Source of the DNA: Kibdelosporangium persicum
GTDB lineage: Bacteria > Actinomycetota > Actinomycetes > Mycobacteriales > Pseudonocardiaceae
Assembly (NCBI RefSeq): GCF_013280595.1
Contig: NZ_JAAATY010000024.1
Coordinates: 62,001 to 126,000 of the forward strand
Length of the DNA stretch: 64,000 nucleotides
Direction of reading: 5' to 3'
Made by a program: the position numbers and the translations under genes. Of this stretch, positions 16,501 through 33,875 are shown piece after piece (the first letter of the stretch is position 1; the number at the start of each line of letters is the position of its first letter). The notes under the pieces were generated by a model, which searched no databases, had not been told where the DNA came from, and saw only the letters and a program-made list of their open reading frames with translations.

Positions 16501-16799
16501 TCGAGCCGGTCCAGCACCCCGGAACCCACCAGCTTGCGCAGCCTGGCGCGGACACGGTCGGCCAGCTGACGGGCGGCCTTGCGGGTGAACGTCAGACCGA
16601 GAATCCGCTCGGGCACGACCAGGCCGTTGGCGACGAGCCACACCACGCGGCCCGCCATCGTCTCGGTCTTGCCCGCGCCCGCACCGGCCACGACCAACGC
16701 CGGTTCGGCAGGCGCCGCGATCACGGTCGCCTGCTCGTCGGTCGGGGCAGGCAGGCCGAGTGCCGAGGCCAGCTGCCGGGGGGTCATCCGGTCGTTCAC
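13551..16799 (-). CDS. adnB: AdnB subunit of the AdnAB helicase-nuclease (DSB end resection)
   Basis: This 1082-aa protein has a UvrD-type SF1 motor followed by a RecB-like nuclease module. Motor motifs are Walker A AGAGAGKTET (about 38-47), LTFTRKAARQLADRVRARL (Ia), Walker B LLDEYQDTGHAQ, GDPAQAIYGWRGA, and the late motifs VVTVHSAKGLEWEVVAIPHV and LFYVALTRSERSL. The nuclease motif is GRMDAVYADDDGGWTVVDWKTGR near residue 970. In mycobacteria AdnB is the leading motor of the heterodimer that resects double-strand breaks. The intact DEYQ box fits that role. adnA lies 134 bp upstream, a gap long enough for a separate promoter. The start may be GTG 16799 or ATG 16787. Confidence 0.93.
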   Translation of the reverse strand: MNDRMTPRQLASALGLPAPTDEQATVIAAPAEPALVVAGAGAGKTETMAGRVVWLVANGLVVPERILGLTFTRKAARQLADRVRARLRKLVGSGVLDRLDPSGERKAAVITGEPTILTYHAYAGRLVGEHGLRLPVEPAARLLTETSSWQLAHRLVSTWTQDLDTDRVPATITRYLLDLAGEMGEHLVDEDKLAEHAERLCQLIEAAPRGPRQAAEPSQKLKEIIAAQRFRVALLPMVKAYAERKRKDGVMDFADQMAIAARLARDHPEVAKGERAKYGAVLLDEYQDTGHAQRVLLRSLFGRDDPMPVTAVGDPAQAIYGWRGASAANLPRFTTDFPTEDKRPATRYGLLTSFRNPPEVLTLANTVSEPLRRSGLEVDELRAREDADEGDVRCALFPDIQAELEWLADAVAGRWRAKIENEGRPPTAAVLVRRRADMADIATALRTRGLPVEVVGLGGLLDEPEVRDLVSTLRVLVDPLAGTAATRLLTGSRWRLSAADLAALWRRATELAGLHAPDQVDPLLGAVPGERAEQAGLVDALDDPGDPKRYSTEGYNRIRGLGGELTQLRRRLDQSLPELVADVERTMQLDIEASARPGPISRVHLDAFADVVADYAQHSPSASLMSFLDYLSAAEDAEDGLEPGEVEVAEDRVQVVTVHSAKGLEWEVVAIPHVVTDVFPSKRRGSSWLRAVTELPASLRGDAQDLPELRLSGDMNRKEVEEALQEHNEGFAERALTEERRLFYVALTRSERSLLVSGHWWGRTGAKPKGPSEFLTELSEVDVAAVDHWAPAPAEDEENPIANAARIARWPIDPLGKRRQDVLDGADQVRAELAKLKRGKPPDEDQLLLPLEDEDPDGWQRDTDVLLAERAAAQTRREKIALPGQLSVSQLVELAADPDALARRLRRPLPFPPNPVARRGTAFHTWLERRFGSGRLLDLDELPGAADDSAAQDDELEALRAAFLASSWADRIPHEVEVPFTCDVDGLSVRGRMDAVYADDDGGWTVVDWKTGRVPDAAQLPALAVQLAAYRLAWAQLAHVPVERVRAAFHYVRHDHTLQPADLLDADGLRALVRSVPSVTDA

Positions 16800-16933
16800 A
16801 GCGACCCGACCCTACATCGGCAAACGGGGGATCGCGGTGTTCGGCATACGCACCTCCTCCGGAGCGGACCGGCGCGTCTGCCGGGGTCAGGCGGCCGGTG
16901 AGCGTGGGCGGCTCCGCACGACGTACGCCCTGG

Positions 16934-19900: not shown

Positions 19901-20122
19901 CGCGGTGAGGATCAGCAGGCTTTCCGGATCGGCGCCGTCCTTGATCCGCTTCGCCGCCAGCTCGGCCAGCAGCGTGGTCTTGCCCGTGCCGGGCCCGCCG
20001 AGCACGCGGCAAAAACCGCCGCCGCCACCCTCGATCAGCTGGGTGGCCGCATCGTCCCAGCTCAGGTCCGCACGAGGGTGGTGCGGAGCCCGGACGAGGA
20101 GCGGCGCGGACTTCGTCACCAC
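16934..20122 (-). CDS. adnA: AdnA subunit of the AdnAB helicase-nuclease
   Basis: This 1062-aa protein has the same layout as AdnB: an N-terminal UvrD-like motor and a C-terminal RecB-family nuclease. Walker A is GGPGTGKTTL (about 42-51), but the Walker B segment reads LYVDDAQHLD, lacking the DEXQ glutamate. This agrees with the weak motor reported for mycobacterial AdnA. The nuclease motif is GRVDRLEADADKRPVVIDIKSGKT. A cysteine before the nuclease (AKCPLRW) and the terminal CPRCPAKTSC give the four cysteines expected for the Fe-S cluster of the AdnA nuclease. It works with AdnB in DNA end resection. It is the first gene of the pair and starts at a 658-bp non-coding gap. Confidence 0.93.
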   Translation of the reverse strand: MVTKSAPLLVRAPHHPRADLSWDDAATQLIEGGGGGFCRVLGGPGTGKTTLLAELAAKRIKDGADPESLLILTASRRAATALRTHITRLLTDMGMRTVRDPLVRTVHSYAFAVLRLQASLRDEPGPRLLSGPEQDAVVRDLLEGDLERGADYWPKRLKPALTIPGFADELRDLLLRAAERGVGPEDLAELGRRYSRDEWVAAGLFGKQYEQVTLLAAAADTGVAHASGPALDAAELVDSALVAFETDEELLDQERTRVRHLYVDDAQHLDPLQFQLVETLAEGATEYVLAGDPDQAIFSFRGADPRLLADADPSGGNTVVLTTGHRMATQIREAVGRLAGRLPGTGPQRQIREGRDVPADGNVALRLHPSAAAEASWVADQLRRAHLIDEIPWSEMAVVVRSATRSIPVLYRALAAAGVPVAIPTDEVPLAQQPAVRPFLALLECAADPNALDAEMAAMLLSSPLGGADPMALRRLRRGLRRLELAAEGDRSSDELLVEALNSNDRLAALDDAEAAPLRRVGALLAEARKAIAEGAGVEQVLWGVWQGSGLERRWVAQAERGGTSGAQADRDLDAIVGLFHAAAKYADRLPGAGVGRFAEYLGAQQIAGDSLAQKAPIGESVALLTAHAAAGREWTVVAVPGVQEGAWPDLRLRGSLLGVEQMVDVLNGADPYEYVSMTAPILAEERRLFMVAASRARWRLLVSAIRGEEEQPSRFLGELAEFEDEELAFVSLSGTRSLVLADLVGELRKVVCDGEEPAPRRRRAARQLARLAEAGVPGAHPDSWYGLAELSSAAALREKTEPVKVSPSTVDVLAKCPLRWVVERHGGQDPVELHVITGTLVHALAQAAAEGANERELRAQLDEAWKQVDAGAPWYSKRERQRVHGMLDTFLSWLTGSRSQLTQVAIEQDVSVDLPQEEDGPLIRLRGRVDRLEADADKRPVVIDIKSGKTPVSKDEAAQHPQLAVYQLAAAYGAFVKLGLDTAPGGARLVFVAKKDRRTGAAERVQEPVEGEAVQEWLSVVRKAAADSIGPDYDARENPDCPRCPAKTSCPLHPAGRQVTE

Positions 20123-20780: not shown

Positions 20781-22859
20781 ATGAAAAGGATCAGGGCACG
20801 GGTATTACCTGTCCTGCTAGCAGCCGTTGTCGCCGGTTCCGTCGCCACTTCCGCGAGCGGCGTTCCGGCCAGTGCCGCGCACGCCGAACACGCGCACGAA
20901 CATCCGTTGATCCGGGCCGCGGTGGCCCGGCCGAAACAGCCACCGGCGCCCAAGTTGCCTGTGGTGAATGGGCCGGTAATGAGCACGGCCGCACTGGTCC
21001 AGGATGTGAACGCCAAGTCGAAGGTCGCCCTTCGCGTACTGGTTGTCGCCAGTTCGTCGGCTGATTTCGGACTGCCGACATGGAAGTCCACGCTCGATCG
21101 CATCGGGCAGCCGTACGACGTCATCTTGGCGAAGAACACGACACTTCGCGCCGGCCAGCTGGTGAACGCCGACGGAACACCGAAATACAGCGCGGTCCTG
21201 CTCACCGACAACGCCCTGATCAGCGAAGGGACCAGCGCCTTCGACACAGCCGAGTGGTCGGTCCTGTGGTCCTATGAAAGGACCCACGGGATCCGTCAAG
21301 TGTCGTTGTACACGTCGTACGGAACATTTCCCGAGGACTACTGCTTGCGGCCCGGCAGTGAAGGACCGATCACCACACCCGCGCAGGCCACACTGACGCA
21401 GGCAGGCGCGGCGTTCTTCGACTACCTGAAGGCGTCGGCGCGCATTCCCATCACCCAGTCGTACGCATACCGGTCACGGCTCCAGTCCGGCTGTTCGGCG
21501 CAACCGCTGCTGACGATCGGCAACGACGTGCTCGGAGTGACCTCGACGACCGCGGACGGGCGTGAGCGCGCGGCGCTGACGTTCTCCTCGGGCGAGTACC
21601 AGGTGCACACCGACCTGCTGAGCTACGGCCTGGTGCGCTGGGCCACGAACGGCGTTTTTGTCGGCGAGCAGCGGCACTGGCTGAACGTCGACATCGACGA
21701 CTGGTTCAACCACACCGCGCACCTGTACCCCGACGGCAGGCTGGAGACCGACCCCGGCTTCCGGCTGTCCGGCGTCGAGGCCTCGGCCACACACGCGCAA
21801 CAGAACTCGCTGCGCGACCGGTTCCCGCTGGCGGACGAGTTCACCCTGAACATCCCGTACAACGCCGGCGGGTTCGACCCGGCCGCGCCGTCCCGGTGCA
21901 GCGCGACGAACACACCCGACCCGCTGAGCAGCTTCTCCCGGTGTGAGGCCAACAACTTCCGGTGGATCAACCACACCCTGACCCACCCGACGATGGACTT
22001 CCTGACCTACGCCGAGAGTTTCAGCGAGATCCGCGACAACCTGGCGCCGGTTCGCGAAGCGGGATTCGTCGTGCCGACCGAGATCCTGAAGACCCCGGCG
22101 TACTCCGGGCTCGGCGTCTACTCGCCCACGCCGAACGGCCCGCTGAAGGACTTCGGCCTGACCGGCTCGAACCCGAACCTGCTGCGGGCGGCGAAGGACC
22201 TCGGGGTGAAGTACCTGCACGGCAACATGTCCTTCGAAGGACACCAGCCGCCGTGCTTCAACTGCGCGATCACGCACCCGCTCGAACCGGCGGTCTCGGT
22301 GGTGCCGGACTGGCCGGTCAACATCGGCTACCAGGTCACCACGCCCGCCGAGCAGACCTATCTGTACAACAGCCTTTACGGCCCGGACGGCCAGTTCCCC
22401 ACCCACCCGAGGAACCTGACGTACGCCGAGATCCTCGCGCTGGAAGCGGAGGTCGGCCTGTCGCACGTGCTGAGCGGATCGGTGTACTCGCACACGTTCC
22501 ACCAGGGCAACGCCCACCACTACGCGCCCGGCAAGAGCCTGATCTTCGACTGGACCGAGGAGATCGTCCGGCAGTACAGCAGCTTTTACCAGGTTCCGTT
22601 GAAAGGCCCGGACTGGAGCAGGCTCGCCGGGTACACCAAGGCCCGCGCCGCGCACTTCGCCGAGATCCGGACCGGGCCGGACGTCGTGTGGGACCGGCTG
22701 ACCAACATCGTCACGATCAACGCCGACACCACCGGCACGCTCTTCCTCACCGGGGCGAGCCTGGTGACCGTGCCGTCCGAACGGTACGGCGCCGACCTGA
22801 TCTCCCAGGCAAGCGTCCGCCCCGGCCTGCCCCAGATCCTGCTCGCCCAGCCGAGGTAG
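20781..22859 (+). CDS. secreted exopolysaccharide deacetylase, Agd3-like (CE18), paralogue A
   Basis: The 692-aa protein has a signal peptide (VLPVLLAAVVAGSVATSASG, cleavage probably after SASGVPASA). The N-terminal domain (about 75-290) starts VALRVLVVASSSADFG and resembles the carbohydrate-binding domain of fungal Agd3. The catalytic NodB-like domain contains the Asp pair Asp306-Asp307 (DIDDWF) and the metal-binding HTLTH (His398, His402). Agd3 deacetylates N-acetylgalactosamine in Aspergillus galactosaminogalactan and defines family CE18. I infer the same chemistry on a polymer made by the downstream genes, outside the membrane. ATG 20781 has GAAGGG 7 bases upstream. Paralogue B follows after 4 bases. 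The family call is from memory of the motifs and architecture. Confidence 0.8.
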   Translation: MKRIRARVLPVLLAAVVAGSVATSASGVPASAAHAEHAHEHPLIRAAVARPKQPPAPKLPVVNGPVMSTAALVQDVNAKSKVALRVLVVASSSADFGLPTWKSTLDRIGQPYDVILAKNTTLRAGQLVNADGTPKYSAVLLTDNALISEGTSAFDTAEWSVLWSYERTHGIRQVSLYTSYGTFPEDYCLRPGSEGPITTPAQATLTQAGAAFFDYLKASARIPITQSYAYRSRLQSGCSAQPLLTIGNDVLGVTSTTADGRERAALTFSSGEYQVHTDLLSYGLVRWATNGVFVGEQRHWLNVDIDDWFNHTAHLYPDGRLETDPGFRLSGVEASATHAQQNSLRDRFPLADEFTLNIPYNAGGFDPAAPSRCSATNTPDPLSSFSRCEANNFRWINHTLTHPTMDFLTYAESFSEIRDNLAPVREAGFVVPTEILKTPAYSGLGVYSPTPNGPLKDFGLTGSNPNLLRAAKDLGVKYLHGNMSFEGHQPPCFNCAITHPLEPAVSVVPDWPVNIGYQVTTPAEQTYLYNSLYGPDGQFPTHPRNLTYAEILALEAEVGLSHVLSGSVYSHTFHQGNAHHYAPGKSLIFDWTEEIVRQYSSFYQVPLKGPDWSRLAGYTKARAAHFAEIRTGPDVVWDRLTNIVTINADTTGTLFLTGASLVTVPSERYGADLISQASVRPGLPQILLAQPR

Positions 22860-22863
22860 GCCG

Positions 22864-24915
22864 ATGAATCCACGCAGGCTGGGCCGGAATCTGCCCATTC
22901 CGCTGCTGATCGTGGTCGCGCTCGGGCTCGTCGCCGTCACGCTGTCCAGCCCGTCCGGGCTCGGCACACCGCGTGGCACGGCCACGTCAGCGCAGCCCTT
23001 GTTGCCCGAACAGCCGCCACTGCCTCGCAAGAACCGTGTCCCGGTGCGCGCCGCGTCGGCCGACACCGGGCCGGGGACCCGCGTCGCCCTACGGCAGCTG
23101 GTGGTGGCGACGGACGCGGAGGACTTCGGCCTGGCCGCGTGGAAATCGGTCCTCGACGCGATCGGCACACCGTACGACGTTCTGCTGGCGAGGACCGAGC
23201 GGCTCACGCCCGAGCGCTTGGTCCGGCCGGACGGCGCCGGCCGGTACAACGCGATCCTGTTGAGCAACAACGCCTTGCTGTACTCGTCGAACGGCACCTA
23301 CCGCAGCGCCTTCGACGATCCACAGTGGAACGCCCTATGGGACTACGAGCGTGGGTTCCAGGTACGGCAGGTCTCGCTGAACACCTTTCCCGGGCAGACA
23401 CCGGAGGACCACTGCCTGCGGCCGGTGCGGGAGAGTTCGATCGGGACCAAGCCGGAGCCCGCCACGCTGACCGGTGCCGGGGCGCAGGTCTTCGACTACC
23501 TGCACCAGGACGCCAAGGTCCCGATCGTTCAGTCCTATCTGTACCGGACCAAGCTCGGGTGCGCCGCGGAACCTTTGCTCAAGGTGGGTCCGGACATCGC
23601 CGGTGTGCTCAGCAAGGCACCGGACGGCAGGGAACGGGCCGCGGTGACGTTCTCGCTCGGCCCGGACGCCGTGTCGACAAAGCTCCTTGGACCGGGCCTG
23701 GTGCGCTGGGCCACCCGGGGCGTTTTCCTCGGCGAGCAACGGCACTGGTTCGGCGTGGACGTCGACGACTGGTTCAGCAGCACCATGCGGCAGCACCCGG
23801 ACGGCACCAAGGACGTCTACCGGCTGACCGGTGCCGAGGCGGCCGAAGTCGCCGCCCAGCAGAAAAAAGTACGTCAGAACCATCCGCTGGCGAAAGACTT
23901 CACGCTCAACCTGCCCTACAACGCCAGTAAATTCGACGCCCGTGCGCCCGCGAAGTGCAGTTCGGACACCCCCGAACCGTTGAGCAGCTACACCAAGTGC
24001 CTGGCCGACGAGTTCCGGTGGATCAACCACACCAGCACCCATCCGCAGATGAACGACACCTCCTACGACCGCAGCCACACCGAGATCCGGCGCAACCTCA
24101 CCGACGCCGCGATCGCCGGGCTGCGGGTGCCGCACACCGTGCTGAAGACCCCGGAGTACTCGGGTCTCGGCGTCTACAACCCTGATCCGGTCTCGCCCGA
24201 TCCGCCGACCGACCACGGACTCGGCGGTTCCAACAAGGAGATGCTCAAGGCGGCGAGTGACCTCGGCGTGAAGTACGTGCAGGGCAACATGTCCTTCGCC
24301 GGGCATCGGCCGTCGTGTTTCAACTGCGGCATCCACCACCCGTTGCAGCCGGACGTGTTCGTGGTCCCGGACTGGCCGACCAACATCGCGTTCGAGGCCG
24401 TGACCCCGGAAGAACAGACAGCGCTGTACAACGCCGAATACGGCCAGCACACGTACGAGGCGATCGTCGCCAACGAGGCCGAAGTCGCGCTACAGCACGT
24501 GATCAGCGGTTCCGCGTACGTCCACACGCTGCACCAAGGCAACCTCCACCAATACGCCGAGGGCAAGAGCCTGGCGTTCGACTGGATCGAGGCGGTTCTG
24601 GCCGGATACAGCTCGTACTACCGGGTTCCGCTGAAGAACACCGACTGGATCACGCTGGCGAACTACGTCGAGAACCGCACCTCGCACTTCACCCAGCTGA
24701 CCGAGGACGCGGTCTGGAACCGGGTCACGAACGCCGTCACCTACACCCCGAAGAACGACGGGTCCCTGTTCATCACGGGAATCGAGACCCGCGAAGCGAC
24801 CGAGGAGGACCAGAAAGGACCGGACGAGGCCGAACTCTACGGCACCGACGCGGTGTCCCGGCTCGGTGTGACCGCGGGCCAGGCGGTCACCCTCACGGCG
24901 AGCCCGCGATCATGA
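22864..24915 (+). CDS. membrane-anchored or secreted exopolysaccharide deacetylase, Agd3-like (CE18), paralogue B
   Basis: This 683-aa protein is a tandem paralogue of the previous gene and is collinear over its whole length. Its N terminus RRLGRNLPIPLLIVVALGLV has a hydrophobic helix without an obvious AXA cleavage site, so it may stay anchored while paralogue A is released. It has the same N-terminal domain (VALRQLVVATDAEDFG), catalytic Asp301-Asp302 (DVDDWF) and HTSTH (His389, His393). Cysteines in MSFAGHRPSCFNCG match those of paralogue A. Its stop overlaps the start of the PelF-like gene by ATGA, tying deacetylation to synthesis in one operon. Confidence 0.8.
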   Translation: MNPRRLGRNLPIPLLIVVALGLVAVTLSSPSGLGTPRGTATSAQPLLPEQPPLPRKNRVPVRAASADTGPGTRVALRQLVVATDAEDFGLAAWKSVLDAIGTPYDVLLARTERLTPERLVRPDGAGRYNAILLSNNALLYSSNGTYRSAFDDPQWNALWDYERGFQVRQVSLNTFPGQTPEDHCLRPVRESSIGTKPEPATLTGAGAQVFDYLHQDAKVPIVQSYLYRTKLGCAAEPLLKVGPDIAGVLSKAPDGRERAAVTFSLGPDAVSTKLLGPGLVRWATRGVFLGEQRHWFGVDVDDWFSSTMRQHPDGTKDVYRLTGAEAAEVAAQQKKVRQNHPLAKDFTLNLPYNASKFDARAPAKCSSDTPEPLSSYTKCLADEFRWINHTSTHPQMNDTSYDRSHTEIRRNLTDAAIAGLRVPHTVLKTPEYSGLGVYNPDPVSPDPPTDHGLGGSNKEMLKAASDLGVKYVQGNMSFAGHRPSCFNCGIHHPLQPDVFVVPDWPTNIAFEAVTPEEQTALYNAEYGQHTYEAIVANEAEVALQHVISGSAYVHTLHQGNLHQYAEGKSLAFDWIEAVLAGYSSYYRVPLKNTDWITLANYVENRTSHFTQLTEDAVWNRVTNAVTYTPKNDGSLFITGIETREATEEDQKGPDEAELYGTDAVSRLGVTAGQAVTLTASPRS

Positions 24916-26333
24916 CCACACCCGGCACGCTGCTCAAACCCGCCGGCCTGGCCAGCCGGAGCCTGCGGATCGCGTTGATCTCCGAAGGAGCGTACCCGTT
25001 CCACCCCGGCGGCGTCAGCCTGTGGTGCGACCAGTTGATCAACGGCATGCCGGAGCACCGGTTCACCGCGGTCGCGTTGACCGTCGACGGATCGGAACGC
25101 AGCACCTGGCCCGCGCCCGGCAACCTGGCCAAGGTGGTGAACCTTCCCCTCTGGGGCGAACCACCCGAGGACCGGAGCAGGCGCAAGGGATTCGCCGAGA
25201 TCCATTCGGCGTTCCTGGAAGCCCTGCGGCCACCGGGCGACGCGGACGCACTGCTCGCCGTACTCCCGGCCATGTTCGCGTACGCCCAGAATGCGGACCT
25301 TGGCAAAGCGATGCTGTCCAACGACGCCATCGACAGGCTGATGACACAGTGGACGCCTCCGCTGCGCCTGCGTGACGCACTGACCGCCGCTGATCTGCTG
25401 GAACACATGCTGCGGCCGTTGTCGTACCGGCCGATCCAGGCCGACATCTGCCACCTGTCGATGAACGGCCTGAGCGCCCTGGTCGCGATGGCCGCGAAAT
25501 GGACCTACGGCACCCCGATCCTGATGTCCGAGCACGGCGTCTACCTCAGGGAGCGCTACCTCGGCATCGTCGACGAACCCGCGCCGCACACCGTGAAAGT
25601 GCTGCTGCTCAGCTTCTTCCGGGCACTGGCGGGCGCGGCCTACCGCGCCGCGGACATGCTCGCACCGCACTCCAGCTACAACCGTCGCTGGCAGTTGCAC
25701 AACGGCGCGGACGAACGCCGCATGCGCACGATGTACAACGGGATCGACCCGGCGGACTTCCCGCCCGTCGAACACGAGCCGGACGAGCCGACCATCGTGT
25801 TCGTCGGCCGGATCGACCCGTTGAAGGACCTGCACACCCTGATCAGGGCGTTCCACCTGGTGCGCGCGGAGATCCCGGACGCACGACTGCGGATGTTCGG
25901 GCCGGTCACGCCGGTCAACGAGGGCTACCACGCCAGTTGCGTCGAGCTGATCGGCCACCTGGGCCTCACCGGCGCCGCGGTCTTCGAAGGCCGGGTCCCC
26001 CGGCAGATCGACGCCTACCACGCGGGGCACCTGGTCGCGTTGACCAGCGTGTCCGAAGGTTTCCCGTTCACCGTCGTCGAATCGATGTCGGCCGGCCGGC
26101 CCCAGGTGTGTACCAACGTCGGCGGCGTGTCCGAGGCCGTCGGCGACGCGGGATTCGTCGTACCGCCCCGTGATCACGCCGCGGTCGCACGAGCGTGCGT
26201 CAAGTTGCTCACCGACACGTCCTTACGGCGCAGGCTCGGCCGGGTCGCCCGGCAACGGGTGCTGGAGAACTTCACCTTGCAGCAGTGGAACGACACGTAC
26301 CGCGGCATCTACAACGAGTTGGTGGCGCGGTGA
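24912..26333 (+). CDS. PelF-like GT4 family glycosyltransferase
   Basis: The 473-aa cytosolic GT-B enzyme has the start ALISEGAYPFHPGGVSLWCDQLI and the internal SEHGVYLRERYLGI, which are diagnostic of PelF (EGTYPY..GGVS..., TEHGIYTRER). PelF polymerises UDP-linked hexosamine in the Pel system. The nucleotide-binding half contains YNGIDPADFP, VFVGRIDPLKDLHTLIRAF and SVSEGFPFTVVESMSAGRPQV (EX7E-type). The length is close to PelF. ATG 24912 overlaps the preceding TGA, and the stop overlaps the next GTG. I infer that it is the polymer synthase of the locus, probably using UDP-GalNAc or UDP-GlcNAc. The donor is not determinable from sequence. Confidence 0.85.
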   Translation: MTTPGTLLKPAGLASRSLRIALISEGAYPFHPGGVSLWCDQLINGMPEHRFTAVALTVDGSERSTWPAPGNLAKVVNLPLWGEPPEDRSRRKGFAEIHSAFLEALRPPGDADALLAVLPAMFAYAQNADLGKAMLSNDAIDRLMTQWTPPLRLRDALTAADLLEHMLRPLSYRPIQADICHLSMNGLSALVAMAAKWTYGTPILMSEHGVYLRERYLGIVDEPAPHTVKVLLLSFFRALAGAAYRAADMLAPHSSYNRRWQLHNGADERRMRTMYNGIDPADFPPVEHEPDEPTIVFVGRIDPLKDLHTLIRAFHLVRAEIPDARLRMFGPVTPVNEGYHASCVELIGHLGLTGAAVFEGRVPRQIDAYHAGHLVALTSVSEGFPFTVVESMSAGRPQVCTNVGGVSEAVGDAGFVVPPRDHAAVARACVKLLTDTSLRRRLGRVARQRVLENFTLQQWNDTYRGIYNELVAR

Positions 26334-27655
26334 ACGAGATCGAGGCGGTGGACGAGCTCGCGGACCGGGTGGCGCCGATGATCGGCCGGGCCGTGGACGA
26401 GTTGCAGATCGCGGCGGTGCTGGAAAGCCAGGGTTTCACCGACCAGGTCGCCAGGGAACGGTACGGCGTCAAGGATGTCTTCGCCTTGGCGAGCGTGGTG
26501 TTCCGGCACCTGCCTCGGGACGTGGAAGCACTGCCGGACGCGCAGCGGGCGCGAAGGACGTTCCGGGTACTGTCGCACGGACCGCTCTTCTTGTTGCCGA
26601 GCCTCGGTTATCCAGCGGTCTACGACTGGCTCGGCGGCCTGCCCATGGTCCGCGGCCTGGTCTTCACCACCGCGATCGGCTGGTGGTGGGCGATGGGCAT
26701 GAGCCTGGTGGCCTACCGCTTGCTCGGCCATGGTCTCGACCATGCCGCGGGCCGCTCGTTGCGGTTGCTCGGCGGCATCGGGCTGGGGGTAGTCGCCGCG
26801 GGCTCGCTCGTCATCGACACCCGGCTGTGGGTGTTCTGTCTGGCACAGATGGGTTTTCAGGTTTCGTCCTGTGTGATGGTGATCTACAAACGGGAAGCAC
26901 GGCTCGCGCTGCTGATGCTGCCCGCGTGCGCAGGTGGACTGGCGCACCTGGTGTTCGACATGATGCTCGTGGCGCTGTGCTGCGGTGCGCTGTCCATTGT
27001 GCTCGTTCTGGTCGAGTCGTGGCGCTCGGCAGGCAAAGCGGCGCCGGACACCCGTAAACCGCCACGCATGCCCATGTTGCTCCGGCTGACCGCGCCGAGC
27101 GTGGCGTACTCGGCCTTGTGCGCGGCTTTCCTGTTGAACACCGACGCACGGTTCGTGCTGGCCGAACTGGATCTCGGTCTGGCGGTCGCTCCGCTGGTCC
27201 TCGGCATGGGAGCCGTGGAGTGGCGGGCACACCGGTACTCCGAGCAGGCGTTGGACCAGCTGGACCACAGCCGGGACGTGACGGCTTTCCGGCGGTGCAT
27301 CCAGTGGCTGCTGATCCGGGAACTGGCGCACTGCCTGGTGATCATCGGCTGCATCGCGCTGCTGATGCTCGGCGTGCTCGCCCAGTTCGGCCTGCTCACC
27401 ACCCGGGGTTCGTTGCTCGTCGACGCCCATGTGCTGCTGGGCGGCGTGTTCTTCCTCGGGTTCGTGCTGATGCGCTACGAGGGACTGCGGTCGTCGCTGG
27501 TGATCATGCCGGTCGTGGTGATCGCCAACGTGGTCGTCAACCTCGTCGTGCCCGGTTACGAAATCCAGGTTTTCCTCACGGGCTGTGCCGTCCTGCTCGT
27601 GCTGTTCCTGCTGGTCTCGCTGGTGACGGCCGGCGAGGTCCGGCGTTACCGATGA
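26330..27655 (+). CDS. polytopic membrane protein in the PelG position, candidate polysaccharide exporter
   Basis: The about 441-aa protein has a soluble N-terminal region of about 80 residues (VDELADRVAPMIGRAVDELQ...). About ten hydrophobic helices follow, including GLVFTTAIGWWWAMGMSLVAY, SLRLLGGIGLGVVAAGSLVI, AHLVFDMMLVALCCGALSIV, CLVIIGCIALLMLGVLAQFG and FLTGCAVLLVLFLLVSLV. In Pel loci PelF is followed by PelG, a 12-helix MATE/Wzx-like transporter. Gene order and topology match, but I do not recognise PelG sequence motifs. The long soluble N terminus is also unusual. It could instead be a distinct exporter or a PelE-like scaffold. The GTG start overlaps the PelF-like stop (GTGA). Confidence 0.65.
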   Translation: MNEIEAVDELADRVAPMIGRAVDELQIAAVLESQGFTDQVARERYGVKDVFALASVVFRHLPRDVEALPDAQRARRTFRVLSHGPLFLLPSLGYPAVYDWLGGLPMVRGLVFTTAIGWWWAMGMSLVAYRLLGHGLDHAAGRSLRLLGGIGLGVVAAGSLVIDTRLWVFCLAQMGFQVSSCVMVIYKREARLALLMLPACAGGLAHLVFDMMLVALCCGALSIVLVLVESWRSAGKAAPDTRKPPRMPMLLRLTAPSVAYSALCAAFLLNTDARFVLAELDLGLAVAPLVLGMGAVEWRAHRYSEQALDQLDHSRDVTAFRRCIQWLLIRELAHCLVIIGCIALLMLGVLAQFGLLTTRGSLLVDAHVLLGGVFFLGFVLMRYEGLRSSLVIMPVVVIANVVVNLVVPGYEIQVFLTGCAVLLVLFLLVSLVTAGEVRRYR

Positions 27656-27676
27656 TCTGAAAAGGAGGGCCACACC

Positions 27677-28396
27677 ATGCATGCGGTGATACTCGCTGGG
27701 GGACGGGGGGTACGACTGCGCCCGTACACGACGGCACTGCCGAAGCCACTGGTGCCGATCGGCGAGGAGTACGCGATCCTCGACATCATCATGCAGCAAC
27801 TGCGATCACAGGGCTTCACCCGCGCGACGTTGGCGATCGGGCACCTCGGGTCGTTGATCCAGGCGTTCGTCGGCGACGGCTCGCGGTGGAACATCTCGGT
27901 GGACTACTCCCAGGAGGAGTCGCCGCTGTCCACCATCGGGCCGCTGCTCAACTTCCTGGACCAGCTGCCGGAGCACTTCCTGGTGATGAACGGCGACGTG
28001 CTGACGGATCTGGACTATGTGGCGTTGCTGAACCACCACACCGAGACCCGGGCACCGCTGACCATCGCGACCTACCAGCGCCAGGTGAAGATCGACTTCG
28101 GGACACTGGAGACGACCGACGGCCGGATCGTCCGGTTCGTGGAGAAGCCCACGTTGTCGTACGGTGTCAGCATGGGCGTCTACGCGATGTCCCGCAAGAC
28201 ACTGGCGCCGTATCCCCGCAATGTCCCTTTTGGCCTCGACGAGCTTGTGCTCGACCTGCTGGCGAAGAACGAACCTCCCGCGGCGTACGACTTCGGCGGG
28301 TACTGGCTGGACATCGGCCGGCCGGACGACTACGACGAGGCGAACCGCGAGTTCGAACGGCTCCGCCCGATCCTGGTGCCGGAGGCGGTGCGGTGA
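27677..28396 (+). CDS. sugar-1-phosphate nucleotidyltransferase
   Basis: This 239-aa NTP_transferase-family enzyme has MHAVILAGGRGVRLRPYT (pyrophosphorylase loop), the LPKPLVPIG lysine motif, NGDVLTDLDY (metal-binding Asp), VEKPTLSYGVSMGVY and the C-terminal GGYWLDIGRPDDYDEAN. It activates a hexose-1-phosphate as an NDP-sugar in the cytosol. Substrate specificity (Glc, Man or an amino sugar) cannot be read from sequence; short single-domain members are often glucose- or mannose-1-phosphate transferases. A strong AAGGAGG ribosome site precedes ATG 27677. It belongs to the operon, 21 bases after the membrane protein. Confidence 0.88.
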   Translation: MHAVILAGGRGVRLRPYTTALPKPLVPIGEEYAILDIIMQQLRSQGFTRATLAIGHLGSLIQAFVGDGSRWNISVDYSQEESPLSTIGPLLNFLDQLPEHFLVMNGDVLTDLDYVALLNHHTETRAPLTIATYQRQVKIDFGTLETTDGRIVRFVEKPTLSYGVSMGVYAMSRKTLAPYPRNVPFGLDELVLDLLAKNEPPAAYDFGGYWLDIGRPDDYDEANREFERLRPILVPEAVR

Positions 28397-29256
28397 AACG
28401 AGTTCTGCTCTTCGGCGGAACCGGATTCCTGGGCAGCAAGGTCGTCACGGCGCTGGACGGCCGTGCCACGGTGATCCAGGCAGGCCGGCGGTCCGCGCTG
28501 CGGCACGACTTGGTCAACGATGACGTGACCAAGCTGATGACGTTGCTGCGGGAAGTCAAGCCGGACGTCGTGGTGAACTGCACCGGCCTGCTATCCGGTT
28601 CCGCCGCGGATCTGGTGTCGGCCAACGTGCTGACCACCGCGTACCTGCTCGACGCGATCGGCTCGGCGACGGCCGGGACCAGGTTGGTGGTGATGGGGTC
28701 GGCCGGTGAGTACGGCGTTGTGCCGGTGGGAAAGCCGGTCACCGAAGACAGTCCGACCGCTCCCGTCGCCGCGTATGGGGTGACGAAGCTGGCCAGCACC
28801 ATGATGGTCGCCTCGTCGCCTGTGGACGCTGTGTCGCTGCGCGTCTTCAACCCGATCGGGCCTGGTGTCGGCGCGGACACCGTGCTCGGCCGGGCCGCCG
28901 CGAGCATCCGCACGGCACTGCACCACGGCGAGACCAAGATCTTGCTTGGCCCGCTGGACTCGTACCGGGACTTCGTGGACGTCCGGGATGTGGCGAGTGC
29001 GATCGCCACCGTCGCCCTCGCCGACGCCGTCCCGCACCGTGTGCTGAACGTCGGCAGCGGACACCCGGTGCTGATCAGGGACGCGGTCAAGCTGCTCGCC
29101 GAAGTGGCCGGGTTCACCGGCGAGATCTCCGAAGCCGACCCGCCGGTCAGCCGGTCCGGCGCGGTCACCTGGATCGCCGCCGACACCACCCGGCTCACCG
29201 CCCTCGGCTGGCGCCCGCAGCACGACCTTGCCACCGCCATCCGCACCCTCTGGTAA
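28393..29256 (+). CDS. NAD-dependent epimerase/dehydratase (extended SDR)
   Basis: The about 287-aa SDR has the nucleotide-binding motif LFGGTGFLGSK at its start and VVNCTGLLSGSAADLVSANV. The catalytic serine region is MGSAGEYGVVPVG and the catalytic pair is YGVTK (Tyr-X3-Lys). Substrate-side motifs are RVFNPIGPGVG and DSYRDFVDVRDVASAI. It is the last gene of the plus arm, started at GTG by GTGA overlap with the nucleotidyltransferase, and is probably a C4-epimerase, reductase or dehydratase acting on the NDP-sugar made by that enzyme. Palindrome copy 3 begins 2 bases after its stop. Confidence 0.85.
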   Translation: MKRVLLFGGTGFLGSKVVTALDGRATVIQAGRRSALRHDLVNDDVTKLMTLLREVKPDVVVNCTGLLSGSAADLVSANVLTTAYLLDAIGSATAGTRLVVMGSAGEYGVVPVGKPVTEDSPTAPVAAYGVTKLASTMMVASSPVDAVSLRVFNPIGPGVGADTVLGRAAASIRTALHHGETKILLGPLDSYRDFVDVRDVASAIATVALADAVPHRVLNVGSGHPVLIRDAVKLLAEVAGFTGEISEADPPVSRSGAVTWIAADTTRLTALGWRPQHDLATAIRTLW

Positions 29257-29258
29257 CC

Positions 29259-29310
29259 CCCCTCGTGAGTGTTTGTCAGGGTTCTAACCCTGATAAACAC
29301 TCACGAGGGG
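29259..29310. repeat. palindromic repeat copy 3, longest stem
   Basis: Arms 29259-29283 and 29286-29310 can pair over 25 bp with one G-U pair around a 2-base centre, making an almost perfect 52-bp palindrome. It separates the two convergent arms of the exopolysaccharide locus. The TGA stop of the minus-strand GH114-like gene lies in the right arm (29303-29301), giving the terminus -PAHPS. The plus-strand epimerase ends just outside it. It is a plausible bidirectional terminator. Confidence 0.9.
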
Positions 29311-30017
29311 TGAGCAGGGATTATGGTGAGGTCCCGGGTGCTGACGAAGCAGGGCATGCCGAACCGGGCCGCTCGCTGCCGCGCGAACTCCGCCAGCCGC
29401 GGGGTGTCGGCGTAGTCCAGTGCGAAGACTTCGACGTCCAGGCCCAGCAGGGTTTCGGCGTACCGGGCGTGGACGTCGAGCACGTCCGGGGGCCAGGGCG
29501 CGTAACCGCCTTCGACCCACCGGGACGTGAACGACTCGAACAGCACACCGTCGACCAGTTCGGCCAGGTGCGGCAGCAACCCGAAACCCCGGTTGGCGAG
29601 CAGGTAGTCCGGGTAGGTCAGTTCCCGCAACGCCGCGACCAAGGTCAGCAGATGCGGCAGGTCCTCGGGGAACGTCAGCTCGATGTTCAACGTGTCGAGG
29701 AAGAACCCCCGGTAGCCGCGCCTGCGCATCTCCTCCGCCTGGTCGAGCACGTGCTCGCTCCAGCCAGGGTGTCCAACGTGGACGAAGTGGCCGCCCCAGT
29801 CCGGATTGCGGTCGCCACGTTGCCACGCGGCAGGCGGTCCCGTGTCCTCGGTCATCGAGAGGTAGCAGAGCGGCCGCACTCCCCGTACCACAAGCGACGC
29901 GATGTCCTGTTCGGAGTACGCGTCGCCTTGCAGCACCACACGGTCGAACGCGGCGAGCCGATCGATCTGGTCCGTTCCGTAGTAGAACGCGATCGGCCCG
30001 CCGCGCGGATGGTTCAC
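29301..30017 (-). CDS. GH114-like endo-alpha-1,4-polygalactosaminidase (Ega3 / PelA-hydrolase type)
   Basis: This 238-aa TIM-barrel-type protein matches the PF03537/TM1410 pattern: IAFYYGTDQIDRLAAFD, the acidic RGYRGFFLDTLN (Asp108 as candidate catalytic residue), LLANRGFGLLPHLAELVDGVLFES (Glu161) and a late VFALDYAD strand. GH114 includes fungal Ega3 and the hydrolase domain of PelA, which cleave galactosamine-rich polymers. No signal peptide is present, so it would act inside the cell or leave by another route. GTG 30017 overlaps the epimerase stop (GTGA); an ATG at 30032 is the alternative. The stop codon is provided by palindrome copy 3. Confidence 0.78.
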   Translation of the reverse strand: MNHPRGGPIAFYYGTDQIDRLAAFDRVVLQGDAYSEQDIASLVVRGVRPLCYLSMTEDTGPPAAWQRGDRNPDWGGHFVHVGHPGWSEHVLDQAEEMRRRGYRGFFLDTLNIELTFPEDLPHLLTLVAALRELTYPDYLLANRGFGLLPHLAELVDGVLFESFTSRWVEGGYAPWPPDVLDVHARYAETLLGLDVEVFALDYADTPRLAEFARQRAARFGMPCFVSTRDLTIIPAHPS

Positions 30018-30952
30018 GCGTTCCCGCGATACCATTCGAACGTCCGTCTGACTCCCTCTGCCAAGGACACCGCGGGTTCGTACCCGGTGAGCGCACGCAG
30101 TTTCGTCAGGTCCGGGCACCGCCTGGCGACCGAACCCGCCGGCGCGCTTTCGACGTCGAGCGCCGGGTCGTGGTCGGCGATACGCAGCACGAGTTTGGTC
30201 AGATCGCCGATGTTCGTCTCCTCGTCGTTTCCGATGTGGACGATCTCGCCGGTCACCTTGTCCATCGCCAGCAGCATCGCCGTCACGGCGTCGTCGACGT
30301 AGCAGAACGCGCGGTACTGATCGGTGCCGTAGACCTTGAACGGATCTTCCCGGCGCACGGCACGCAACGACAGCTCGGGGATCACGTGGTCCGTGCCCAT
30401 CCGAGGACCGTAGACGTTGTGGAACCGGCCGATCACGAACTGAAGGCTCTTCGCACGGCCGATGTGCACGACCGCTTCTTCGCCCAGGAGTTTGCTGGCG
30501 GCGTACGCGAACCTCGGCGCGGTGACGTCGTCGATCATCACCGGCACGGTCTCCGGCGTCGGCACCTCGACGATGCCCGCGCTCACGCCTCCCGCGTACA
30601 CCTCGCTGGTCGACGCGAAGAACAGCTTCTCCTCCGGCCGGATCCAGTCCAAAGTGTTCAGTACGACCAAGGTGTTGACGCGGACCACCTTGCCCGGGTC
30701 CTTCTCGACGTTGCGCACGCCGACCACGGCCGCGAGCAGGTACACCTGGTCCCAGCCGTGCGGAATCCGGTCGAACGCCTCCGCGTCGGTGAGATCCGCC
30801 GAGATGACCGGGACTTCGAGCGCCGCGAGGTCCGGATCGTTGCGGCCACGGGAGAAGTCGTCGACCACGGTGACGTCGTGACCGTCCGCGAGCAAACGCC
30901 TGGTCAGGTGCACGCCGATGAACCCGGCACCACCGAGGACGAGGACCCTCAT
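30014..30952 (-). CDS. UDP-sugar C4-epimerase type SDR
   Basis: The 312-aa extended SDR begins MRVLVLGGAGFIGVHLTRRLL. It carries the DDFSRG motif typical of UDP-glucose/UDP-GlcNAc C4-epimerases and UDP-xylose synthases, FASTSEVYAGGVS, YAASKLLGEEAV (catalytic Tyr/Lys), RFHNVYGPRMG and RAFCYVDDAVTAML. It probably interconverts UDP-GlcNAc with UDP-GalNAc, or glucuronate forms supplied by the upstream dehydrogenase. In Aspergillus the equivalent step is Uge3. A UDP-glucuronate decarboxylase is an alternative because it sits beside a UDP-sugar dehydrogenase. ATGA overlap with the upstream dehydrogenase; GTGA overlap with the GH114-like gene. Confidence 0.85.
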   Translation of the reverse strand: MRVLVLGGAGFIGVHLTRRLLADGHDVTVVDDFSRGRNDPDLAALEVPVISADLTDAEAFDRIPHGWDQVYLLAAVVGVRNVEKDPGKVVRVNTLVVLNTLDWIRPEEKLFFASTSEVYAGGVSAGIVEVPTPETVPVMIDDVTAPRFAYAASKLLGEEAVVHIGRAKSLQFVIGRFHNVYGPRMGTDHVIPELSLRAVRREDPFKVYGTDQYRAFCYVDDAVTAMLLAMDKVTGEIVHIGNDEETNIGDLTKLVLRIADHDPALDVESAPAGSVARRCPDLTKLRALTGYEPAVSLAEGVRRTFEWYRGNA

Positions 30953-32250
30953 GCGGGCACCTCGTATCCCAGCGCCGCGTAGCGCACGCCGTGGGCCGTG
31001 ATCTTGTCGGCGTCCAGGATCCGCCACGAGTCGTAGACCACACGGACGTTCCCGCCCGGCAGCAGTTCGTCGATGTCAATGGCCTTGTAGTCGGGGTGGT
31101 CGGTGATCACGAGCACCGCGTCCGCGGCCCGGAAACCCTCGGCGAGAGTGACCGGTTCGCCGCCGTACTCACGGATCACCCTCGGCAGCACGAGCGGATC
31201 GTGGCCGAGCACCCGGATTCCGGCTTCGGTGAACACCGGCATCATCGACGCGATCGGCGTGCCGCGCATGTCGTCCGTGGGCGGATGTCCTTTGTAGGCC
31301 CAGCCGAGGACCATCAGCGTCTTCGCGCCGTCCATGAGGTCGACCATCCGGTGCGCGACGTGCACCGGCGTCTCCTCGTTGAGCGTACGGGCCGCGGCGA
31401 TCAGCTTCGGTACGTAACCGTTGCGTTCACCGCTGGTGAGCATGATGTACGGGTCCTTCGACAGACATCCGCCGCCGACGTAACCCGGCTTGGCGATGTC
31501 CGGCCGGGGGTAGTCGATGTTGGTCGCCCGGATGACCTCCAGCGGATCAAGGCCCAGCCGTTCGGTGAGCATCGCGACCTCGTTGCCGAACGAGTAGATC
31601 ACGTCGGTGTGGCAGTTGTTGGTCAGCTTGACCAGCTCAGCGGTTTCCAGTGTGGACACCGGGACGACCTGGGCGGACAGCCCGGCGAACAGCCTGACGC
31701 CCAGTTCCCGGCTCTCGTCGTCCAGACCGCCGACGACCTGCGGCAACTCGACGAGCTCGCGCAGCGCCTGACCTTGGATCGTGCGTTCCGGCGCCATCAC
31801 CAGCCGCGCGCTGTGCCACTTCTCGATCAGCGGCGGCAGCACCACTTCGCGGCTGGCGCCGACCGGAACCGTGCTGCGGACGACCACCAACGTCGTCGGC
31901 GCGCACCGGTCGGCCACGTGTTCCGCCGCGGCGGCCAGGTTCTTCAACCTGGGTTCGTGGGTTCTTTCATCGACCGGAGTCGACACGCAGATGATGGCCG
32001 CGTCGACGCCGTCCCGCGGCAGTTCGCGGGAGATGAAGATGTTCCTGCCGATCAATTCCGTGAACGTCTCGGTGACGCCCGGCTCGAAGATGTGCGGTTT
32101 TCCGCGGGACAACGATTCGAGCACCAGTGGATCGGTGTCCACGCCGTGCACTTCGAAGCCCTTGCGGGCCATCGCGGCCGCCAGCGTCAAGCCGACATAG
32201 CCCATTCCAACGATGCCGATTCTGCGTAAATCCGGCATGTGAACAGTCAC
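30949..32250 (-). CDS. UDP-glucose/UDP-GlcNAc 6-dehydrogenase family protein
   Basis: This about 433-aa UDP-sugar dehydrogenase has the N-terminal NAD domain (IGIVGMGYVGLTLAAAMARKG), VSTPVDER, RSTVPVGAS, the middle helix with KLTNNCHTDVIYSFGNE, the catalytic cysteine motif GYVGGGCLSKDP, and a C-terminal UDP-binding domain with LGWAYKGHPPTDDMRGTP. It oxidises C6 of a UDP-hexose or UDP-HexNAc to the uronate, so the polymer or a side branch may contain a uronic acid. GTG 32250 has AAGGAG 5 bases upstream and is preferred to GTG 32256. Confidence 0.88.
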   Translation of the reverse strand: MTVHMPDLRRIGIVGMGYVGLTLAAAMARKGFEVHGVDTDPLVLESLSRGKPHIFEPGVTETFTELIGRNIFISRELPRDGVDAAIICVSTPVDERTHEPRLKNLAAAAEHVADRCAPTTLVVVRSTVPVGASREVVLPPLIEKWHSARLVMAPERTIQGQALRELVELPQVVGGLDDESRELGVRLFAGLSAQVVPVSTLETAELVKLTNNCHTDVIYSFGNEVAMLTERLGLDPLEVIRATNIDYPRPDIAKPGYVGGGCLSKDPYIMLTSGERNGYVPKLIAAARTLNEETPVHVAHRMVDLMDGAKTLMVLGWAYKGHPPTDDMRGTPIASMMPVFTEAGIRVLGHDPLVLPRVIREYGGEPVTLAEGFRAADAVLVITDHPDYKAIDIDELLPGGNVRVVYDSWRILDADKITAHGVRYAALGYEVPA

Positions 32251-32345
32251 GCTCACTCCTTGAGGATTTCAAACACCGGCCACTGTGTTCGTCGGTGTGA
32301 CCCAAGGATGTGTTAGCGATTTCCGGCTGGTCCTGCCGAGTGAAT

Positions 32346-33875
32346 TCAGCAGACCGGAACCTGCTCCACGGTAATCGCCGCGCTGTACTCCTCCGGTGGA
32401 TCTTCCGCGGTGAATCCGCTGAACACGACGACCTGCCTGGACTGACCGGCGGCCGGGACACGCCAGTGGAAAGAACCTGCTTTTTCCGCTACCAGCGGCC
32501 GCACGTCCGGCACTCGTTCCCACGCCCAGCCCGGCCCGGTGTGCCGATAGAGAAACGCGTTCTCGATCATGAGGTCGACACCGGCGGGCAAACCGGGCGG
32601 CAGGTGCCAGCCGGTGGCCGGATTGTCGTCCGAGTCGATGAACACCCGATGATGGGAGAACGTCGCCCCGAAACTCACCCGGTAATCCGCGGCCGTCGGG
32701 CTCAGACACACGGACGCGTCCGTCAGCGGCGGGCCGCCGGACGGCGTCGTGATCACCAGCGGCGCGCTCGCGGCGGAGAGGTTCCCGGCCGCGTCCCGCG
32801 CTTTCACCGCGAACTCGTGCTGGGTCGTATGCGGCAGACCTGTTGCCTGGTAAGCGTTGTCGTACGTGTCCGCGATCTTGGCGCCGTTCACGAACACCTC
32901 GTAACCCGCCACGGCGACGTCATCCGAAGGCGTCGGCCAGGTCAGTCGAACCTTCGCGCCGGACGGGTTCGCCCGGGTCGTCGCCGTCAGGCCGACCGGC
33001 GCCTGCGGTGGTGTCACGTCGGCGATCCCCGACGCGGCAACGAGTTGATCGTCCCAGTAGGACGTGAGCCCGCTCCACGGGTACGGGTCCATCCGCAGCT
33101 CGGTGGTGTAGACGAAGCCGGCGTTGTTGACCTTGCTGCGGGCGATGACCGTACGCATGTCGTCCGCGGTCGGGACGTTGTGGATCAGGTGCCAGAACTT
33201 GCGTGGGTTCGGATGATCACGTTGCCAGTCCGGCGAAGTGTGCGTCTGATAGGTGGCGAAGTCGCCCTCGAAGGAGACTATCGTGTCCGCGACGTCCTCA
33301 TAACACCGTTCGGCCGGCGCGCCGGGATTGATCACGACGTACGCTTCCGGATGCCTGGCCCTGATGTGATCACGAATCCCGGCGTAGAGCCGGGCGTAGT
33401 CGTCGTCCTTGCCGCAGTTCAGAATCGTCTGGTCGAGAAAGACGCCGCTGATCCCGTGCGCGCCATAAGCGGCATACCAGTCGTCGATGTCCCTGCGGAT
33501 TTGCGCGGACCATTCCGGAATCGAGGTCCCGCCTTCCCTGGTGCGGTGACCGCCCTGTCCGAAGTCGATGCCGTGATAGCCGGTGTCGACGTAGACCAGT
33601 GTCGTGGTGCCGGTCGCGGCCAGCCTGCCGATCGCCGCCGCCCAGGCGGGATGAAACGGCAACTCCGGCATGCTGCGGCTGCCGTTGAGCACGACGATTC
33701 CGTTTGTCGGCCGGTTCTGCGCCAATCGGTGGAAGATCGCCATGCCTTCTGGCGTATCCGGTCCCCAATATGCCGGAACGGCGGTCTGCTGGCGATCGGC
33801 GGTCGCCCCGGCCGGGACCGGCAAGAACAGGGCGATCGCGATCAGGACGCAGGTCAGGGCGAGCTTTCGGGCCAT
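32346..33875 (-). CDS. secreted spherulin-4/Sph3-like (GH135) glycosidase with FN3 domain
   Basis: The 509-aa protein has a clear signal peptide (LALTCVLIAIALFLPVPAGATA). The catalytic-type domain (about 30-235) has the spherulin-4 pattern: VPAYWGPDTPEGMAIFHRLA, GIVVLNGS, TTTLVYVDTGYHG, GISGVFLDQTILNCG and DTIVSFEGDFATY. A fibronectin type III domain (about 255-345) and a beta-rich C-terminal domain ending VEQVPVC follow. Fungal Sph3 (GH135) is an endo-N-acetylgalactosaminidase needed for galactosaminogalactan. A secreted homologue here supports a GalNAc-containing polymer. A GGAGG ribosome site precedes ATG 33875. It heads the minus arm, 95 bp before the dehydrogenase. Confidence 0.78.
   Translation of the reverse strand: MARKLALTCVLIAIALFLPVPAGATADRQQTAVPAYWGPDTPEGMAIFHRLAQNRPTNGIVVLNGSRSMPELPFHPAWAAAIGRLAATGTTTLVYVDTGYHGIDFGQGGHRTREGGTSIPEWSAQIRRDIDDWYAAYGAHGISGVFLDQTILNCGKDDDYARLYAGIRDHIRARHPEAYVVINPGAPAERCYEDVADTIVSFEGDFATYQTHTSPDWQRDHPNPRKFWHLIHNVPTADDMRTVIARSKVNNAGFVYTTELRMDPYPWSGLTSYWDDQLVAASGIADVTPPQAPVGLTATTRANPSGAKVRLTWPTPSDDVAVAGYEVFVNGAKIADTYDNAYQATGLPHTTQHEFAVKARDAAGNLSAASAPLVITTPSGGPPLTDASVCLSPTAADYRVSFGATFSHHRVFIDSDDNPATGWHLPPGLPAGVDLMIENAFLYRHTGPGWAWERVPDVRPLVAEKAGSFHWRVPAAGQSRQVVVFSGFTAEDPPEEYSAAITVEQVPVC

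Follow-up and report, generated by a model that had tools for sequence, protein, structure and literature searches.

The closest described relatives of the locus reported here are the Aspergillus galactosaminogalactan (GAG) cluster, which comprises uge3, gtb3, agd3, ega3 and sph3, the bacterial Pel operons, of which the Gram-positive type (pelDEADAFG) has PelD, PelE and PelG (PMC7112168), and the bacterial agd3 operons described by Bamford et al. in 2020 (PMC7229062). The last contain a glycosyltransferase (GT), a multi-spanning membrane protein and a glycoside hydrolase (GH) of family GH114, with spherulin-4 in some Actinobacteria; they were used to support transfer to fungi, and the same report suggests that Pel/GAG-like polymers are made by many bacteria (PMC7229062). 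Here we describe ten genes that fill positions 20781–33875 of a 64,000-nucleotide stretch of the Kibdelosporangium persicum genome (the window), which lies on contig C24 of a 10.35 Mb assembly. That these genes form one system is strongly supported, and we rate the locus as a distinct class of the known Pel/GAG-type system, with sugar-supply genes of its own and altered enzymes.

The ten genes are arranged as a six-gene plus arm, in the order agdA, agdB, gt4, mem, ntp and sdr1, and a convergent four-gene minus arm, which reads from its own 5′ end as gh135, ugd, sdr2 and a GH166-like gene (SDR, short-chain dehydrogenase/reductase; CE, carbohydrate esterase; PDB entries are the matches of each protein):

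agdA, 20781..22859, + strand: secreted CE18-like (Agd3) protein of 692 aa with CBM87 and CE domains (Pfam; PDB 6nwz, E 3e-10); Asp510 in place of the CM3 Arg
agdB, 22864..24915, + strand: second CE18-like protein, 683 aa, with an N-terminal hydrophobic segment (Pfam; PDB 6nwz, E 3.7e-11); Asp503 in place of the CM3 Arg
gt4, 24912..26333, + strand: PelF-type GT4 glycosyltransferase of 473 aa with N-terminal DUF3492 (PF11997, 163 bits; NF038011, 160.5 bits)
mem, 26330..27655, + strand: polytopic membrane protein of 441 aa with a MOP/Wzx/MATE-like fold; in the PelG position, with no PelG sequence signal
ntp, 27677..28396, + strand: sugar-1-phosphate nucleotidyltransferase, 239 aa (PF00483, 127 bits)
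sdr1, 28393..29256, + strand: extended SDR (epimerase or 4-keto reductase) with a GSAxEYG motif (PF01370, 118 bits)
GH166-like gene, 29301..30017, − strand: PelA hydrolase-type protein of 238 aa with no signal sequence; conserved Asp and Glu align with PelA
sdr2, 30014..30952, − strand: SDR with a T-S-E triad, probable UDP-glucuronate decarboxylase (PDB UDP-glucuronate decarboxylase, E 3.6e-36)
ugd, 30949..32256, − strand: nucleotide-sugar 6-dehydrogenase, most likely of the UDP-glucose type (TIGR03026, 292 bits; PDB CalS8, E 3.6e-47)
gh135, 32346..33875, − strand: secreted GH135 protein (Sph3/spherulin-4-like) of 509 aa with an FN3-like and a further C-terminal part (PF12138, 120 bits)

The original prediction had placed all ten genes in these positions and in this order, and its assignments of two Agd3-like CE18 deacetylases, a PelF-like GT4, a nucleotidyltransferase, a UDP-sugar dehydrogenase and an Sph3-like GH135 agree with the profile matches given here. 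It had also described nearly all junctions as tight or overlapping, which holds for six of the eight within-arm junctions, at +4 or −4 bp, and not for two wider ones; the spacings are +4, −4, −4, +21 and −4 bp along the plus arm and −4, −4 and +89 bp along the minus arm (in plus-strand order). Scans of the locus for promoters and terminators gave nothing exceeding shuffled sequence.

Several patterns emerge when the locus is set beside its described relatives. As in the operons of Bamford et al., a CE18 protein occurs with a cytoplasmic GT and a membrane protein, and members from Deinococcus-Thermus are mentioned there (PMC7229062); the available part of that text describes neither the ntp–sdr1–ugd–sdr2 set nor a CM3-Asp subfamily, nor a GH166 protein that lacks a signal sequence, although its figure may include such members. 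No paper describing this gene set was found among those under open licence in PubMed Central. With the Aspergillus GAG cluster the locus shares a GT, a CE18 protein and a GH135 protein, but the GT and the membrane part are separate genes, no GalE-type Uge3 was identified, the hydrolase is GH166-like instead of GH114, CM3 differs, and a dehydrogenase, a decarboxylase-type SDR and a nucleotidyltransferase are added. With the Pel operons it shares the succession of a PelF-type GT4 and a membrane protein, together with a PelA-type hydrolase domain; unlike them, its hydrolase is a separate protein without a signal sequence, its deacetylase is CE18-like and not CE21 or CE26 (PMC13254593), and the host genome is without PelG by PF16933 search. 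A PelD search of the host genome gave no match, but it detected no control either. The predicted combination of the fungal toolkit with a PelF-type synthase is present as CE18, PelF and GH135; it is not new, bacterial agd3 operons having been published (PMC7229062).

Strong support for the ten genes being one system comes from a co-linear paralogous locus, from the recurrence of the gene set across genera and in a second phylum, and from the shared presence of its genes among genomes. The second copy lies on contig C29 of the host genome, with all genes on a single strand in the order agd, gt4, mem, ntp, sdr1, a GH114-type lipoprotein-like gene, ugd, sdr2 and a GH166-like gene, the last being partial at the end of the stretch fetched; no GH135 was seen in that stretch. 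Its GH114-type protein matches PF03537 at 112 bits and the TM1410 family at 146.8 bits (cut-off 181). Outside the window 25 loci were compared, 24 from a scan of named genomes together with locus L004, and a seven-gene core is complete in 21 of them, each gene covering at least 60% of the query length. All but one of the 25 have both gt4 and mem, and 23 have at least one GH166-, GH114- or GH135-type gene. All seven core genes occur in Meiothermus (L025) and on a Thermaceae contig (L028), where ugd and sdr2 are divergent from the others. The convergent arm was considered as an unrelated neighbour, and this is ruled out by single-strand arrangements in seven loci (L004, L010, L018, L019, L021, L022 and L042).

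Of 200 genomes of the family, 24 have gt4 (E≤1e-60) and 26 have ntp (E≤1e-75); ntp occurs in all 24 gt4-bearing genomes and in two of the 176 others (Fisher p 5e-29, kinship ignored). At the level of genera the two genes occur in the same 11 of 46 (p 7e-11). The ntp-only genomes are G482 and G558, in the latter of which both place and order fit the decayed K. philippinense locus. Similarly, ugd (E≤1e-140) is present in 10/10 genomes with a class A gt4 (at least 68% identity), compared with 2/190 others. The surroundings of 26 of the 28 gt4 places were compared (13 class A and 13 class B, see below; those in G406 and G491, at contig ends, were left out), and every one of them contains a CE18-like gene, mem, ntp and sdr1.

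Some of the loci call for comment in their own right. The K. philippinense locus (L014:10001-17905) is decaying; agdA is frame-split, agdB is down to 89 residues, sdr1 is a fragment, gh135 is split, and gt4 and mem were not found. The GT4 genes of L005 and L019 (JOAA01000016.1 and JOAA01000024.1) sit beside Kibdelosporangium aridum in the GT4 tree, and the record title Rhodococcus rhodnii NRRL B-16535 carried by both looks wrong. In Saccharothrix (L013) a fusion of the mem gene is unlikely; the translation beyond mem is low in complexity and rich in arginine, fits antisense readthrough, and comes from a region overlapped by large minus-strand frames.

The gt4 product falls well within the PelF equivalog family (cut-off 100 bits for NF038011), its PF11997 match is full-length, and the motifs GRxxPxK and EX7E are present in 25/25 rows of its alignment. 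The host genome holds just two PelF-type genes over the cut-off, both of them within this system. For the membrane protein encoded immediately downstream, neither the window copy nor the 25 members of its family have a Pfam match, besides one chance-level hit, and its profile has no match in the PDB. The predicted structure (pLDDT 86.5) points to a MOP/MATE-type fold, with WzxE as best Foldseek match (E 1.8e-4, TM about 0.5) among three at E≤0.001, and with WzxE, MATE and MurJ chains all matched; of the 41 best-ranked matches, 40 are titled WzxE, MATE, MurJ or MOP, the other (5c6n) being titled merely 'protein A'. We take PelG itself to belong to the MOP superfamily. The PelG profile PF16933, which detects PelG in Thermotoga and exceeds its cut-off in 7/396 actinomycetes, matches neither mem nor any other protein of the host genome. 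Judged by sequence, therefore, mem is not PelG; it sits at PelG's place after PelF and may work in a PelG-like manner. The predicted PelG-position membrane protein thus stands as to position and MOP/Wzx-type fold, and not as to kinship with PelG.

Both deacetylases match CBM87_Agd3 and Agd3_CE over the Pfam cut-offs (36.5 and 39 bits for Agd3_CE) and are 53–54% identical to each other. The AlphaFold model of the agdB product (pLDDT 85.1) superimposes on the Agd3 crystal structure 6nwz over 699 alignment columns (E 2e-37, TM 0.73), consistent with the three-domain CE18 fold; the next structural matches are chains of human heparan sulfate N-deacetylase (E 1.6e-19 and weaker), from which we draw no reading. 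In an alignment of 40 class A rows, made up of the two window proteins and 38 of agdA and agdB types from other loci, the CM1 Asp-Asp and CM2 HxxxH motifs are invariant, and the CM4 His is present in 39 with the remaining row gapped, so that the metal and catalytic residues are kept.

The two hydrolases probably differ in location. The minus-arm protein originally predicted as GH114 (Ega3-type) falls just below the cut-off of the GH114 profile PF03537 (25.7 against 27 bits), although a Meiothermus relative clears it at 34.9 bits; PelA chains account for all three of its PDB matches at E≤0.001 (best E 1e-20), and the assignment to GH114 gives way to one to GH166. All 14 rows retain the Asp and Glu aligned with PelA. 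The catalytic Glu of PelA we take to be residue 218, and the distance from Asp to Glu in PelA is 58 residues as counted here; PMC12054363 prints Asp160 and Glu223, 63 apart. In every one of these rows the sequence begins close to the first strand and an N-terminal hydrophobic segment is absent (best 12-residue hydropathy 0.29–1.44), with the qualification that starts outside the window were chosen by a script near the alignment start and are biased accordingly; the upstream starts of the window gene at 30035 and 30119 contribute no hydrophobic stretch. Such a segment (hydropathy 1.71–3.34) is found in the agdA and agdB rows, in the window GH135 and in 11 of 12 GH114-type rows, the twelfth (L012, 0.95) being cut by the end of its locus. 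The GH166-like protein has no export signal and is probably cytoplasmic. The gh135 product matches PF12138 at E 1.5e-34 and spherulin-4 in the PDB at E 3.9e-8, and one Asp and one Glu, equated by family with the catalytic pair, are invariant in 10/10 rows. Families GH135, GH166 and GH114/191 all have endo-galactosaminidase members (PMC12054363).

Four genes appear to supply sugars. The ugd product is a nucleotide-sugar dehydrogenase, and ntp is among the best-conserved genes of the set; matches of the sdr1 and ntp products to NCBIfam are far under the cut-offs. The four best PDB matches of sdr2 are all UDP-glucuronate decarboxylases, and its T-S-E triad, the Tyr and Lys of YxxxK and a conserved Arg are present in 23/23 rows, a pattern suggestive of a decarboxylase; the Arg lies in an RAF motif and is presumably equivalent to the ArnA-type Arg. 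T-S-E is found in most UDP-glucuronate decarboxylases (PMC10338323). As sdr2 carries this decarboxylase-type triad and has a dehydrogenase partner, it is more likely that ugd and sdr2 make a UDP-pentose than a uronic acid.

Taken together, the protein families suggest that the locus is probably a dedicated system for the synthesis, export and trimming of an exopolysaccharide of the Pel/GAG kind, built of N-acetylgalactosamine (GalNAc) and galactosamine (GalN), and of a class distinct from those described. UDP-glucose would be converted through UDP-glucuronate to a UDP-pentose by ugd and sdr2, and another activated sugar would be supplied or finished by ntp and sdr1. The cytoplasmic PelF-type GT4 would polymerise UDP-GalNAc, probably along with the additional sugar, and export of the chain would fall to the MOP-type membrane protein. 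Outside the cell the two CE18 proteins would remove acetyl groups and GH135 would trim acetylated stretches, while chains or oligosaccharides in the cytoplasm are probably acted on by the GH166-like protein. A further and more specific proposal, which we regard as tentative and rather doubtful, is that rare actinomycetes and Thermaceae make an undescribed class of exopolysaccharide, a galactosamine polymer with a pentose or other decarboxylation-derived sugar, by means of a PelF synthase with a Wzx-like exporter that shows no sequence kinship to PelG, CE18 enzymes whose active site is rewired by the replacement of Arg with Asp, and a cytoplasmic PelA-type hydrolase that monitors or primes synthesis.

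Several observations weigh against the Pel/GAG-type interpretation. The position of the CM3 Arg is occupied by Asp in 39/40 class A rows (the other gapped) and by Cys in L042, and that of M666, two residues before the catalytic His, by Thr. At these positions L038–L041 have Arg and Met, and six rows from class B have Arg and Tyr. The Arg of L038–L041 probably corresponds to Agd3 R613, since its spacings of 95 and 59 residues come close to the 103 and 55 of R613 itself (in the numbering of PMC7229062). Both R613 and M666 are needed for the adhesion-forming activity of Agd3, and CM3 is retained in most, though not all, bacterial homologues (PMC7229062). With both residues replaced in class A, deacetylation of GalNAc by these proteins is not assured, and their mechanism or substrate may differ; the Pel/GAG-type chemistry of the predicted partly deacetylated GalNAc/GalN polymer is supported by the enzyme families. 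Also to be set on this side are the hhalign comparison of mem with four PelG proteins, which gives a probability of 0.3% and leaves no link by sequence, and the TM1410-type enzyme of T. maritima, which showed no action on GAG oligomers (PMC12054363; the TM1410 structure is that of TmGH191). Among the sugar-supply genes, the PDB matches of ugd are tied between CalS8 and a UDP-ManNAcA dehydrogenase (E 3.9e-47); T-S-E is present also in the class B LegB-like SDR (four rows), and so is not specific to decarboxylases; and, should sdr2 be a decarboxylase, a dedicated UDP-GlcNAc 4-epimerase is not certain. The G527 genome contains ugd and sdr2 genes (L109:8639-10896, 66–69% identical) with no gt4 in the stretch, adjoining an ABC-2 transporter and another SDR, and thus this pair can serve other pathways. 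Finally, part of the core is missing within the stretch covered in four of the 25 loci; of the core, L013 and L024 have agd, gt4 and mem only (L024 also has a GH166-like gene), L015 has no ugd or sdr2, and the fourth is the decaying L014.

Three other readings of the locus were considered. The original prediction called the minus-arm SDR a C4-epimerase and allowed for a uronic acid in the product; sdr2 would then be a UDP-glucuronate 4-epimerase acting in a partly deacetylated GalNAc/GalN polymer. The ugd and sdr2 genes do adjoin in all 22 loci that have both, and a UDP-glucose 4-epimerase (4zrm, E 3e-33) is nearly as good a match to sdr2 as the decarboxylases. However, UDP-glucuronate 4-epimerases carry T-S-S, with Ser at the site where decarboxylases have Glu (PMC7984243), and none of the 23 sdr2 rows shows it; MoeE5, the structural basis for the UDP-glucuronate epimerases in that report (PMC7984243), scores lower, at 74.7 against 128.3 bits. 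We therefore consider the uronic acid unlikely, the triad favouring a pentose.

If the assembled product were instead a wall-linked or capsule-like glycopolymer, of a teichuronic-acid-like kind, mem would flip a lipid-linked unit in the manner of Wzx and the CE18-like proteins would have some other N-acyl sugar as their substrate. The lipid III flippase WzxE as best structural match of mem, the altered CM3 and M666 positions of the class A proteins, and the similarity of the nucleotide-sugar genes to those of antibiotic and surface-sugar pathways would all fit. Yet no Wzy-kind polymerase, initiating transferase or second GT was recognised among the ten genes, and proteins of GH135, GH166 and GH114/191, families with endo-galactosaminidases (PMC12054363), recur with the set, so that we think a glycopolymer of this kind quite improbable. 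It is very hard to credit that the locus is a degradation island whose hydrolases and deacetylases attack fungal GAG or the Pel of other bacteria, the GT providing a self-coat. The GH135 and CE18-like proteins are secreted, and actinomycetes and GAG-making fungi presumably share the soil; but nothing recognisable as a sugar importer or a catabolic gene is found among the ten, the biosynthetic genes are among the best conserved, and of the 25 loci just the decaying one is without gt4 and mem.

In the GT4 tree, for which the program warns of long branches, a branch (99/99) divides 28 class A rows from nine rows of class B (70/77) and from five others; of these five, four come from loci with PelG and the fifth is L039, where PelG was not seen. 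Class B is represented by 13 loci in eight genera of the family (L081–L090 and L111–L113), all with agd-like, gt4, mem, LegB-like SDR, ntp, sdr1 and GH135 genes, 12 of the 13 with GH114, and none with ugd. The class B mem matches are weak (56–84 bits) and often partial, and the CE18-like matches are weak as well. The sole class B CE18-like protein scanned, from L082, reaches 23.8 bits for CBM87 (cut-off 27.6) with no Agd3_CE match. The LegB-like SDR is of the 4,6-dehydratase type (TIGR04180 in L082, 451 bits, cut-off 475). It and sdr2 could both yield 4-keto sugars, and sdr1, common to classes A and B, could act as the subsequent reductase or epimerase.

Class C (L040 and L041) resembles the window locus in having CE18, PelF-type GT4 and GH135 proteins, and differs in having a true PelG (459 and 470.6 bits) and in keeping the CM3 Arg and M666. 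The window locus was considered as the best bacterial match to fungal GAG and rejected in this role; both class C loci score higher on Agd3_CE (93.6 bits in L040) and hold PelG, and they correspond more closely to the fungal cluster. Matches to Agd3_CE are rare, occurring in 6/396 sampled genomes of the phylum, but this profile misses the class B protein scanned. If the proposed function is correct, bacteria make cationic galactosamine polymers with several systems that differ in their equipment, and the present locus would offer a defined gene set and a natural two-copy genome in which the extra sugar, the deacetylases lacking the CM3 Arg and the internal hydrolase could be tested. Dividing the bacterial loci into classes also sets those scoring near fungal Agd3, which belong to class C and have the CM3 Arg and a true PelG, apart from the others; this bears on the proposal that the fungal cluster originated in bacteria.

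Window positions 13551–20122, immediately upstream of the locus, encode two adjacent UvrD-helicase/PD-(D/E)XK proteins, presumably an AdnAB-like pair.

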